Shown here: piece after piece, positions 22,819-26,014 of the stretch
Position numbering within the stretch: the stretch's first letter is position 1
How the letters are laid out: every line of letters begins with the position of its first letter
From: Lentisphaerota bacterium
Lineage (GTDB): Bacteria; Verrucomicrobiota; Kiritimatiellia; PWTM01
DNA: 47,140 bases
Direction of reading: 5' to 3'
NCBI GenBank assembly: GCA_016873715.1
Contig: VGWF01000017.1
Location: 1-47,140, forward strand
The notes under the pieces: generated by a model
What the model saw: only the letters and a program-made list of their open reading frames with translations
Database searches by the model: none
Told to the model about the DNA's origin: nothing
Program-made: the position numbers and the translations under genes

Positions 22819-22869
22819 GCTTCCAAGGGTTGGAAAGCCGCGCTATCCTTCCGTCCAATCCTTGGAAGC
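22819..22869. repeat. Paired TTCCAA/TTGGAA hairpins forming an inverted repeat
   Basis: GCTTCCAAGGGTTGGA (22819-22834) and TCCAATCCTTGGAAGC (22854-22869) pair with one mismatch over 16 bp. Each half is itself a small hairpin (TTCCAA-GGG-TTGGAA; TCCAA-TCC-TTGGA). It sits between the divergent dus and HMG-CoA reductase genes, 28 bp before the latter start codon, so it could be an operator or a dispersed repeat. Confidence 0.65.
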
Positions 22870-22897
22870 TCCGGCGCGGCCGGGAGGAAAGGCGACC

Positions 22898-23926
22898 ATG
22901 CAGGATGCCGCACATGTGCCGATGAAGTCCGTCGGGCCGGTCCGCCTCGCGGGCCCGGAGGTCGAGGCGGAGGTCCGCGTGCCGCTGGCGACCTACGAGT
23001 CGCCGCTGTGGCCCTCGGTCGCGCGCGGCGCGAGGGTGACGTCCGCCGCGGGCGGTATCCGCGCCGTTGTGCTGGACGAGCGCATGGCGCGGTCGGTCCT
23101 GCTGGAGGCCCCCGACGCGGCCGGGGCGGCGGCGGCCGTGACGGGCCTTGCGGCGCGGCGCGACGAGATCGCCGCGGCGGCGCAGCGGGGCAGCCGCTTC
23201 GCGAAATTCCTCGGCGTCCATACGCAGGTCTGCGGCTCGCTGCTGTTCGTGCGCGTCGAGATCTCCACCGGCGACGCGGCGGGGCACAACATGGTCACGC
23301 GCGCGGCGCAGCAGGTCCTCGACTGGATGACGGCCGAGTTCCCGGCGCTGCGGCCCGTGTCGGTGTCGGGCAACTACTGCACCGACAAGAAGGCCTCGGC
23401 GGTCAACGGCATCCTCGGTCGCGGCCGGTCGGTCGTCGCCGACGTGACGGTTTCCGGCGACCTCTGCCGGACGCTGCTGCGGGCGGAGCCGGCGGCCATC
23501 GCGGACCTGAACGTGAAGAAGAACCTCGTCGGGTCGATCCTCGCCGGCGGGGTCCGCTCGGCCAACGCGCATTACGCGAACATGCTGCTGGCCTTCTACC
23601 TCGCGACCGGGCAGGACCCGGCGAACCTCGTCGAGGGCTCGCAGGGCATGACGTCGGCCGAGGCGCGCGGCGACGCGCTTTACTTCGCGGTGTCGCTGCC
23701 GAACCTCGTCGTCGGCACGGTCGGCGCCCCCAAGGATCTCGCCTTCGTGCAGGACAACCTCCGCGCGCTCGGCTGCCTCGAGCCGCGCGCGCCGGGCGCC
23801 AACGCTCGGCGCCTCGCGGTGATCGCCGCCGCGACGGTCCTCTGCGGCGAGCTCTCGCTCCTGGCCGCCCTTGCGAACCCCGGCGAGCTGGTCCGCGTCC
23901 ACGAGCGCATGGAGCGCGGCCGGTAG
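22898..23926 (+). CDS. Hydroxymethylglutaryl-CoA reductase (class I-like)
   Basis: 342 aa, the catalytic portion only. Catalytic residues can be placed: Glu in ATYESPLW, Lys in SGNYCTDKKASAVNG, Asp in ATGQDPANLVEGS and His in ELVRVHERM near the end; GDAAGHNMVTRAA and VVGTVGAP are the cofactor motifs. NYCTDKK is the class I form. It reduces HMG-CoA to mevalonate with NADPH, the committed step of the mevalonate route to isoprenoids. ATG 22898 has GGGAGGAAAGG upstream. The remaining mevalonate genes follow after a 1-kb repeat island. Confidence 0.9.
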   Translation: MQDAAHVPMKSVGPVRLAGPEVEAEVRVPLATYESPLWPSVARGARVTSAAGGIRAVVLDERMARSVLLEAPDAAGAAAAVTGLAARRDEIAAAAQRGSRFAKFLGVHTQVCGSLLFVRVEISTGDAAGHNMVTRAAQQVLDWMTAEFPALRPVSVSGNYCTDKKASAVNGILGRGRSVVADVTVSGDLCRTLLRAEPAAIADLNVKKNLVGSILAGGVRSANAHYANMLLAFYLATGQDPANLVEGSQGMTSAEARGDALYFAVSLPNLVVGTVGAPKDLAFVQDNLRALGCLEPRAPGANARRLAVIAAATVLCGELSLLAALANPGELVRVHERMERGR

Positions 23927-23939
23927 CATCTCCGGTCCT

Positions 23940-24458
23940 GCGCAGGGTGACGGCCGGGGGCGGGCGCCAACGTAGTCCTCACGCTCCGCGTGAGGACATC
24001 TCCGCAGTCCGGATGGTCATCACGCGGAGCGTGATGACTACCCTGCGGCGCCGCCGTTGATCTTGCGCGGGGTGATGGCCGGGGGCGGGCGCCAACGTAG
24101 TCCTCACGCTCCGCGTGAGGACATCTCCGCAGTCCGGATGGTCATCACGCGGAGCGTGATGACTACCCTGCGGGGCCACCGTTGATTTTGCGCAGGGTGA
24201 TGGCCGGGGGCGGGCGCCAACGTAGTCCTCACGCTCCGCGTGAGGACATCTCCGCGGTCCGGATGGTCATCACGCGGAGCGTGATGACTACCCTGCGGGG
24301 CCACCGTTGATTTTGCGCAGGGTGACGGCCGGGGGCGGGCGCCAACGTAGTCCTCACGCTCCGCGTGAGGACATCTCCGCAGTCCGGATGGTCATCACGC
24401 GGAGCGTGATGACTACCCTGCGGCGCCACCGTTGATCTTGCGCGGGGTGATGGCCGGA
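23940..24458. repeat. Tandem array, 4 x 125 bp plus partial unit, each with two hairpins
   Basis: Units start at 23940, 24065, 24190 and 24315, with a 19-bp partial unit from 24440; units differ at only a few bases. Each unit holds hairpin A (GTCCTCACGC-TCC-GCGTGAGGAC; 23975-23997 in unit 1) and hairpin B (GTCATCACGC-GGA-GCGTGATGAC; 24016-24038). B is an inverted copy of A with a compensatory C:G to A:T change in the stem, so the structure resembles paired REP sequences (BIMEs). There are no unique spacers, so it is not CRISPR. Confidence 0.9.
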
Positions 24459-24535
24459 GGGGCGCATCATCCGGTCCTGTGCAGCAATGAGGAAGGCGCC
24501 CGCATGATCAGGTTCATGAACCGGAGATGCGCCCC
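24459..24535. repeat. 77-bp segment with 10-bp terminal inverted repeats
   Basis: GGGGCGCATC (24459-24468) and GATGCGCCCC (24526-24535) are perfect inverted repeats, and the match continues inward imperfectly (CCGG). The interior TCCGGTCCTGTGCAG resembles the left flank of the tandem array (TCCGGTCCTGCGCAG, about 23930), suggesting the array grew inside or beside an older copy. Similar sequence lies next to the degenerate repeat at about 16735-16777. Confidence 0.5.
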
Positions 24536-24551
24536 CGCGGCCGGTAGCGCC

Positions 24552-24900
24552 CATGGCAGACGCATCTTGTTCCTGTCGAAACCGGGCCGTGTGCGCGGGA
24601 TCCTCAGGATTCCCCTTCCATCGCCGGGAAAGGGAGATCCCAGCCGAACGATCCTTGAATCAAGGCGAAGGCGGTGCCGCGGCGCGCACCGGGTGGCCCC
24701 GAGCCCGCGAGGGGTCCGGCCGGGAACGCGGCAGACCGCCCCGGATGCAAGGCGCCGAAGGCGGGGCGGGATCCCGCGCGATCCGGCCGGCCTGGTGCGC
24801 GTCGCTCCCCCGCAACCGCAAGCGCTCCAGCGTCCACCAGCCACTCCGCGCCCCGCCGACCGAAAGGTGCCACGACCTCGAGGAAGATGCGTCTGCCCTG
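24552..24900. mobile_element. MITE-like element with terminal inverted repeats and 10-bp target duplication
   Basis: The ends CATGGCAGACGCATCTT (24552-24568) and the reverse complement of 24884-24900 match at 16 of 17 positions, 14 of them consecutive. CGGTAGCGCC stands directly outside both ends (24542-24551 and 24901-24910) as a direct repeat, the expected target duplication. At 349 bp it has no room for a transposase, so it would be moved in trans; a 9-12 bp duplication recalls the IS4 group (association only). The interior contains the hairpin GGATTCCCCTTCC / GGGAAAGGGAGATCC and is related to 16560-16730. Confidence 0.75.
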
Positions 24901-24955
24901 CGGTAGCGCCTCTTCCGCCTGTCCGGCGGACTCCGGATGTGGTATGTCTGCGCGG

Positions 24956-26014
24956 ATGGACGCGCAGCCGACGAACCGGCGCAAGGAGGAGGCGATCGAC
25001 GTCATCCGCTCGGACGCGGAGGCCGACCGCCGGCGCCGTCATTTCGACTCGGTGCGGCTGATCCACCGCGCGCTGCCGGAGATCCACCTGTCGGACGTCG
25101 ACCCCTCGATCGAGTTCCTCGGCCGCCGCCTCTCGTTTCCCCTGCTGATCTCGTCGATGACCGGCGGCGACTCGGATCGCCTTCGCACGATCAACCGCAA
25201 CCTCGCGACGGCTGCGGAGATGACCGGCGTCGCGATGGGCGTCGGCTCGCAGCGCGTCATGTTCGAGAACCGCGCGGCGCGGGAGAGTTTCGAACTTCGC
25301 GACCTGGCGCCCAACGCGCTGCTCTTCGCCAATCTCGGCGCGGTGCAGCTCAACTGCGGCTTCACAACGGACCATTGCCAGGCCGCGGTGGAGGTGGTCG
25401 GCGCCGACGCGCTGGTGCTGCATTGCAATCCCCTGCAGGAGGCGATCCAGCCCGAGGGCGACACGCTGTTCGGCGGCGTGATCTCGAAGATCGCCGCGGT
25501 GGTCGAACAACTCCCGGTTCCCGTGGTCATAAAGGAAGTCGGCGCAGGCGTCTCGGCGCCCGATGTCGAGGCCCTGATGCGGGCCGGCGTCCGGATCATC
25601 GACGTGGCCGGCTCCGGCGGTCTCTCGTGGAGTCGCATCGAGGGCCATCGCCGCGCGGCGGCGGGCCTGCACGACGGCCTCGGAGCGGCGTTCCAGGATT
25701 GGGGCATTCCGACGCCCGATGCGCTGCGCGCGCTGCGCCGGTACCGCGGACGGCTCGTGCTGATCGCCTCCGGCGGCATCCGTAGCGGCGTGGACATGGT
25801 CAAGGCGATGGTGCTCGGCGCAACGATGGCGGGGATGGCCCATCCCTTCCTCGAGCCGGCGATGGAATCGGCGGAACGGGTGGTCGATGTGATCGCTCAA
25901 CTGAAACGGGAATTCATGACGGCGATGTGGCTGCTGGGCATCGACCGCGCGCAGAAGCTCATCGCCAACGACGCCCTTCTTCTCGGGCCGCGGCCGGCGG
26001 CGGAGAGCGCATGA
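24956..26014 (+). CDS. fni: Isopentenyl-diphosphate delta-isomerase, type 2
   Basis: 352 aa, usual length for the FMN-dependent type 2 enzyme. Motifs: LISSMTGGDSDR, AMGVGSQR, LHCNPLQEAIQPEGD (active-site and Mg region), VIKEVGAGVS and VAGSGGLSW, ending with the FMN phosphate loop IASGGIRSG. It interconverts IPP and DMAPP using reduced FMN. ATG 24956 is preferred; ATG 24944 four codons earlier is equally possible since neither has a clear ribosome site. Its stop overlaps the start of the HMG-CoA synthase gene (ATGA), so translation is coupled. Confidence 0.92.
   Translation: MDAQPTNRRKEEAIDVIRSDAEADRRRRHFDSVRLIHRALPEIHLSDVDPSIEFLGRRLSFPLLISSMTGGDSDRLRTINRNLATAAEMTGVAMGVGSQRVMFENRAARESFELRDLAPNALLFANLGAVQLNCGFTTDHCQAAVEVVGADALVLHCNPLQEAIQPEGDTLFGGVISKIAAVVEQLPVPVVIKEVGAGVSAPDVEALMRAGVRIIDVAGSGGLSWSRIEGHRRAAAGLHDGLGAAFQDWGIPTPDALRALRRYRGRLVLIASGGIRSGVDMVKAMVLGATMAGMAHPFLEPAMESAERVVDVIAQLKREFMTAMWLLGIDRAQKLIANDALLLGPRPAAESA

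Follow-up and report, generated by a model that had tools for sequence, protein, structure and literature searches.

Does a run of near-identical hairpins between two mevalonate genes serve those genes, or does it belong to a mobile repeat? This question was raised by the DNA downstream of the HMG-CoA reductase gene in a 47,140-nucleotide stretch (the whole of which is termed the window) of contig VGWF01000017.1, from the Lentisphaerota bacterium assembly GCA_016873715.1 (host genome G000; 5.13 Mb in 289 contigs). A sequence-only reading had described four nearly identical 125-bp units at 23940–24458, each holding hairpins A and B, and these were confirmed by Tandem Repeats Finder (period 125, 4.2 copies, 96% matches) and by the positions of the palindromes. 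The array does lie there, but it is the interior of a larger element, about 23922–24534, which with its flanking repeats overruns the described extent on both sides, at about 23915–24548 (Table 1). This feature is very probably an ISKra4-type MITE that carries an inverted pair of GTAG-REPs, was moved in trans and had its unit amplified after insertion. The product of the next gene downstream is probably a type 2 IPP isomerase, an assignment made by inference, and its listed ORF begins upstream of the likely start near 24955. The ~400 bp between the element and this likely start (24549–24950) held no recognised feature, and ORF 24553–24906 within it gave no Pfam match.

Table 1. Positions in the window of the array, its palindromes, the ends of the element and the neighbouring genes.
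Feature	Position	Strand	Basis
Tandem array, 4.2 x 125 bp	23939..24457		Tandem Repeats Finder
GTAG-REP A, unit 1	23972..23997	+	REP pattern search, fold
GTAG-REP B, unit 1	24016..24041	-	REP pattern search, fold
GTAG-REP A, unit 2	24097..24122	+	REP pattern search
GTAG-REP B, unit 2	24141..24166	-	REP pattern search
GTAG-REP A, unit 3	24222..24247	+	REP pattern search
GTAG-REP B, unit 3	24266..24291	-	REP pattern search
GTAG-REP A, unit 4	24347..24372	+	REP pattern search
GTAG-REP B, unit 4	24391..24416	-	REP pattern search
HMG-CoA reductase ORF, stop codon abutted by element	22862..23926	+	PF00368, E 2e-80
Left copy of 13-bp direct repeat CGCGGCCGGTAGC, target-site-duplication-like; holds HMG-CoA reductase stop TAG 23924-23926	23915..23927	+	identical to 24536-24548
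Left TIR GGTAGCATCTCCGGT, 2 mismatches to consensus GGGCGCATCTCCGGT	23922..23936	+	locus alignment, end-sequence search
Right module, ~74 bp	24460..24534	+	same sequence stands alone at L148, L150, L154
Right TIR ACCGGAGATGCGCCC	24520..24534	-	end-sequence search, locus alignment
Right copy of 13-bp direct repeat	24536..24548	+	direct-repeat comparison with 23915..23927
Next downstream gene, FMN-dependent dehydrogenase-fold protein	24674..26014	+	PF01070, E 2e-24

Each palindrome was found to be a 26-bp GTAG-tagged REP, GTAGTCMTCACGCTCCGCGTGAKGAC, two of which stand inverted in every unit. Read 5' to 3', REP A is GTAG TCCTCACGC TCC GCGTGAGGAC and REP B is GTAG TCATCACGC TCC GCGTGATGAC. From their own 5' ends both follow one formula (GTAG + TCMTCACGC + TCC + GCGTGAKGAC), so that A and B represent a single repeat in two subtypes, and the change from C:G to A:T on both sides of the stem, which had been claimed to separate them, is real. 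Each 26-mer folds with a 10-bp stem and a 3-nt loop (z = -4.7 and -6.0), with a predicted energy for the single palindrome of -16 to -17 kcal/mol. The claim of covarying stems was borne out in 43 distinct copies drawn from the host and from Planctomycetota, where 24 stem cells were changed on both sides compared with 9.2 after shuffling (0/500 shuffles reached 24), a count that is somewhat favoured by the choice of copies with a pattern near the consensus. The column pair 7/23 was CG in 20 of these copies, AU in 16, GC in 1 and UA in 1, and the signal was lost when the stem partners were slid. An unpaired 5' GTAG tag beside a short palindrome, a 9–10-bp stem, a 3-nt loop and covarying stem residues, by which the palindrome is maintained through compensatory changes, are properties of the GTAG REPs and BIMEs associated with RAYTs (Nunvar 2010, PMC2817692; Di Nocera 2013, PMC3733652), as are the high copy number, the extragenic position, the head-to-head inverted pairs and the tandem groups.

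The 125-bp unit was dispersed at about 40 places in the host genome in 1–5 copies each, and 39 of these loci were parsed: 21 held a single unit, that is, one A/B pair of the kind that the sequence-only reading had proposed to look for, while two units were present at 5 loci, three at 7, four at 4 and five at 2. The palindrome itself was present in 179 copies at ≤2 mismatches, and the reversed pattern in none. The suggestion of an amplified BIME-like repeat therefore held, single and multiple copies being dispersed in the genome. Units were more similar within a locus (0.929) than between loci (0.889; 0/1000 label permutations reached this), and the four units of the window were 95–99% identical to each other, with 95% for the best match outside. 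Hence, the arrays grew, or were homogenised, in place. Furthermore, direct repeats of ~19 bp (TGCGCRGGGTGAYGGCCGG) bracket the REP pair already in single-unit copies, so that slippage or unequal exchange between them would yield 125-bp steps, and tandem growth needs neither transposase. When relatives were searched with the 125-bp unit, only short REP matches were obtained, in one genome (G013).

The description as a BIME-like repeat was nevertheless incomplete, as the unit sits in a transposon with TIRs and 9-bp target duplications. This longer element was recognised by aligning the host loci together with their flanks. It has TIRs GGGCGCATCTCCGRTTC and consists of a GGGCGCATCTCCGGT start, at least one REP-pair unit and a 74-bp module that closes with the inverted repeat (consensus GAATCGGAGATGCGCCC). 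The end sequence gave 102 matches in the host genome at ≤1 mismatch and none with the reversed control. Direct repeats were observed just outside the elements, such as GGCCGAAAC (L027), GGTGGCGGT (L029), GCGCGGCGA (L035), CTTCCAAGG (L148) and ACATGATTC (L150). In a fixed 9-bp register, 11 of the 33 complete host elements matched at ≤1 mismatch, compared with 0.14% of re-paired flanks; exact 9-mer duplications were present at 7 host elements, and a freer test found duplications at 17/34 against 1% in the control. The elements occur as short, non-coding forms of 74–240 bp with TIRs and have a target duplication of fixed length, 9 bp, as is expected of an ISKra4-type MITE. The 74-bp forms (L148, L150 and L154) lack REPs, and two of these three have perfect 9-bp duplications. 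Other host forms measure 127–143 bp and 203–226 bp, and several of the latter enclose another GTAG-type palindrome, GTAGGGCCGGGCCGCTGGCCCGGCC, as an inverted pair.

The direct repeat in the window measures 13 bp, against the usual 8–9 bp, as the left end is degenerate and its six outermost bases read GGTAGC, like the target, in place of GGGCGC. The HMG-CoA reductase stop codon falls within these six bases, so the element lies precisely at the 3' terminus of the gene. A few copies share this trait (window 23922–23927; L015): their left terminal bases match the target and not the consensus, the direct repeat being 13–18 bp, and in the window these bases leave the upstream stop codon intact.

Ends of the same kind were found across the class of the host. 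A search of relatives for the TIR at 2 mismatches of 17 was near background in most genomes, and a 23-bp end was used instead. A related end, GGGCGCATCTGCGATTCGGTGCA, was present in 33 of the 288 genomes of the class (reversed control 0), and 13 of 25 paired elements in genomes other than the host were flanked by 9-bp duplications at ≤1 mismatch (10 of them perfect), compared with 0/4811 re-pairings. Their interiors vary by genome: inverted pairs of GTAG-type palindromes were observed at L223, L229, L233 and L235, and other palindromes elsewhere. Across genomes, arms of one kind carry three or more mutually unrelated GTAG-type REP pairs, and some copies have no pair at all.

These ends are related to those of ISKra4-like insertion sequences. 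At L231, a 353-aa transposase ends 2 nt from the end sequence and matches the ISKra4 family model NF033572 with E 3e-44, which is below the curated cut-off of the model; ISLre2 was weaker. Whole insertion sequences were sought in 346 genomes, and elements of 1730–1805 bp that combine a related transposase with such an end on either side were found at L271 (1730 bp), L272, L274 (1805 bp), L276 (1776 bp) and L278 (1802 bp), with perfect 9-bp duplications at L274 and L276. The ends at L278 are GGGCGCATCTCCG, like those of the window element, and GGGCGCATCTSCG-type ends were present at L231, L271, L274 and L278, and with one mismatch at L276. ISKra4 has been grouped with the prokaryotic Mutator-like DDE transposases, and the p-MULT 4 family, which includes it, has been found in Planctomycetes among other phyla (PMC3942029). 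The related transposase, the GGGCGCATC-type ends, the 9-bp duplications and the short non-coding derivatives resemble the ISKra4 group (PMC3942029) and MITEs generally, and ends shared with an autonomous insertion sequence of that family are a mark of its MITEs; the interior differs from both in being a REP pair and not the remnant of a transposase gene.

We infer that the feature is a non-autonomous MITE with TIRs GGGCGCATCTCCGRTTC and an inverted GTAG-REP pair (a BIME-1-like dimer) as cargo, and that a DDE transposase of ISKra4-like (prokaryotic Mutator-like) type, acting in trans, would have moved it; insertions of this family make target duplications of 9 bp or, in some cases, 8 bp. The copy in the window would have inserted where the HMG-CoA reductase gene has its 3' end, and the REP pair with its flanks would then have grown on the spot from one unit to four, the simplest route being slippage or unequal exchange between the ~19-bp direct repeats. 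Rolling-circle growth driven by a RAYT is a published alternative route of amplification (PMC2817692). On this reading, the hairpins would primarily be single-strand DNA recognition structures for a RAYT (Y1 HUH transposase), and any influence on mevalonate-gene mRNA would come second. Four findings count against the MITE: neither partner was found in the host assembly, whether the ISKra4-like transposase or, among the RAYT-like genes examined, one with the window REP; the end sequence common to host MITEs and autonomous insertion sequences is only ~13–15 bp; the left end in the window is degenerate, with a duplication of its own outside the standard 9-bp register; and some host copies lack the right end. 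An autonomous copy in the same genome is usual for such MITEs, not strictly required. The search of the host for an ISKra4-like transposase matching that of L231 returned none, and neither G000 nor G052 yielded an autonomous insertion sequence; fragmented assemblies often lack such sequences.

Exact matches of the REP in the GTDB collection were found in 57 stretches, all of them, except one from Verrucomicrobia, in Planctomycetota or groups within it, and the Planctomycetota copies were mostly plain single or paired repeats without transposon arms. GTAG REPs in Planctomycetes had already been reported (PMC2817692, PMC3733652). By comparing REP and Y1 positions within the same genomes, a 225-aa Y1 gene with pairs of the window REP on both sides, most with one mismatch, was detected in a genome of Planctomycetia (L203:1698-2375, the genome of L101); an initial sample of 33 Y1 loci had included no gene with this REP. 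Its product was above the cut-off of Pfam Y1_Tnp and below that of NF047646 (REP_Tyr_transpos; E 1e-17). REP pairs on either side of a RAYT gene are the textbook REP-RAYT arrangement (PMC2817692, PMC3733652). The RAYT-like gene that the sequence-only reading had proposed to seek thus exists with the window REP in another genome, but not among the host genes examined, some of which have other repeats beside them. Since REPtrons can be absent from some species (PMC3733652), a host without a RAYT bearing the window REP does not speak against its belonging to this family.

The RAYT-like genes of the host have repeats of their own. The one most similar to that of L203 (37% identical; L204:1435-2115, on contig C117) was missed by the Pfam Y1_Tnp search of the host and found with a protein query, and lies between the tandemly repeated palindromes GGTAGCGCCACGGCTACGACGTGGCG and CGCCGCGGGTCGTAGCCCCGCGGCTACC, which make up a further REP system of the host. 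Further RAYT-like genes were seen at L205:1441-1941 (contig C170), among its own repeats ATGGAGGGCCGAGCTACGCGAGGCCG, and at L049. The genes on C117 and C170 therefore indicate several REP-RAYT systems in the host, none with the window REP among the genes examined.

A plain BIME that owed both its dispersal and its amplification entirely to a RAYT, the TIR arms being conserved inter-REP or flanking sequence, would accord with a REP of the GTAG family that has its RAYT in Planctomycetia, with the plain REP pairs without arms that form most of the Planctomycetota copies, and with the published model of RAYT-driven BIME amplification (PMC2817692). As an account of the whole element it is unlikely, being largely refuted by the 9-bp target duplications, by the TIRs common to the element and the ISKra4-like insertion sequences, and by the occurrence of the same arms without the window REPs or with other REPs; for the amplification step alone it is a candidate.

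A regulatory RNA or attenuator under selection between the mevalonate genes is less probable still. The array does stand directly after a stop codon and between co-directional genes, and the A/B pair as one RNA is predicted to form a single long hairpin of -49 kcal/mol (z = -8.7), compared with -33.4 kcal/mol for two separate hairpins. In this predicted fold, however, the exchanged stem pair turns into two mismatches, whereas it is paired within each palindrome; hence, it is the individual palindrome whose stem is maintained, and this modelling points to the palindrome as the unit recognised singly. The loops TCC and GGA are complementary, as had been claimed, but trivially so, B being an inverted A; as this is automatic for inverted copies it lends no independent support to the kissing loops that had been proposed, and the long hairpin is favoured over them. 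Additionally, about 40 copies are dispersed at unrelated places, the stem covariation spans a dispersed family of DNA repeats beyond this locus, a simple scan detected no hairpin followed by a T-run (a terminator-like site), and Rfam had no family there. As REPs can act on the ends of mRNAs, the mevalonate genes may be affected. An assembly artefact, the danger that the sequence-only reading had itself raised, or a meaningless tandem duplication is scarcely credible, since many loci differ in flanks, unit counts, unit variants or point differences and target duplications, although several contigs of this 289-contig genome end inside copies and exact unit numbers are thus uncertain.

REPs, BIMEs, MITEs, ISKra4 and REP elements inside palindromes (PMC3733652) are known already. 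In the mostly open-access literature covered on REP pairs inside MITEs and on ISKra4 MITEs, the single precedent was that of Di Nocera (PMC3733652), in which a REP dimer or element lies regularly inside another palindromic repeat in Anabaena variabilis (GTAG-15), T. roseum and H. neapolitanus, as here. For that outer palindrome the passage concerned reports no target duplication or transposase, whereas both were found here; no REP-free palindrome was found in A. variabilis or H. neapolitanus, whereas arms without REPs exist here; and, unlike in those three species as described there, one kind of arm serves several unrelated REP pairs. The host further departs from known GTAG REPs and BIMEs in having its REP pairs almost only inside transposons with TIRs, with no RAYT found for the window REP. 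As far as this literature shows, the target duplications and matching insertion sequences of the outer element, and one arm type with several unrelated REP pairs across the class, are new.

These findings bear on the spread of REPs and on the reasons for their persistence where a matching RAYT is lacking. Tentatively, and with somewhat more doubt than confidence, a class-wide system of two layers may be envisaged, in which constant ISKra4-like MITE arms would be the vehicle and host REP pairs would be loaded and exchanged, so that palindromes of a RAYT (HUH) would be spread by a DDE transposase, also into genomes without the cognate RAYT. RAYT insertion, recombination and capture during transposition are candidate routes by which REP pairs may have entered the arms. 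Arms with 9-bp duplications provide recognisable insertion events, with and without pairs, for studying the loading, loss and amplification of REP dimers. They also advise caution, as intergenic tandem hairpins need not be regulatory.

Some copies showed further variation. Contigs C46 (1–212) and the start of C92 (L149, L152) overlap end to end at one MITE, with identities of 118/119 and 103/104, yet only one of the two contains a REP pair of another type, which spans 77 bp and is bounded on either side by CGAACGG; this difference could reflect polymorphism within the population sampled or an effect of assembly. At L217 (G052:C13; 505 bp), a MITE of the same end family with a perfect 9-bp duplication, CCTCGCGCG, the inner palindrome unit also stands in tandem, and amplification of the cargo is therefore not unique to the genome of the window.
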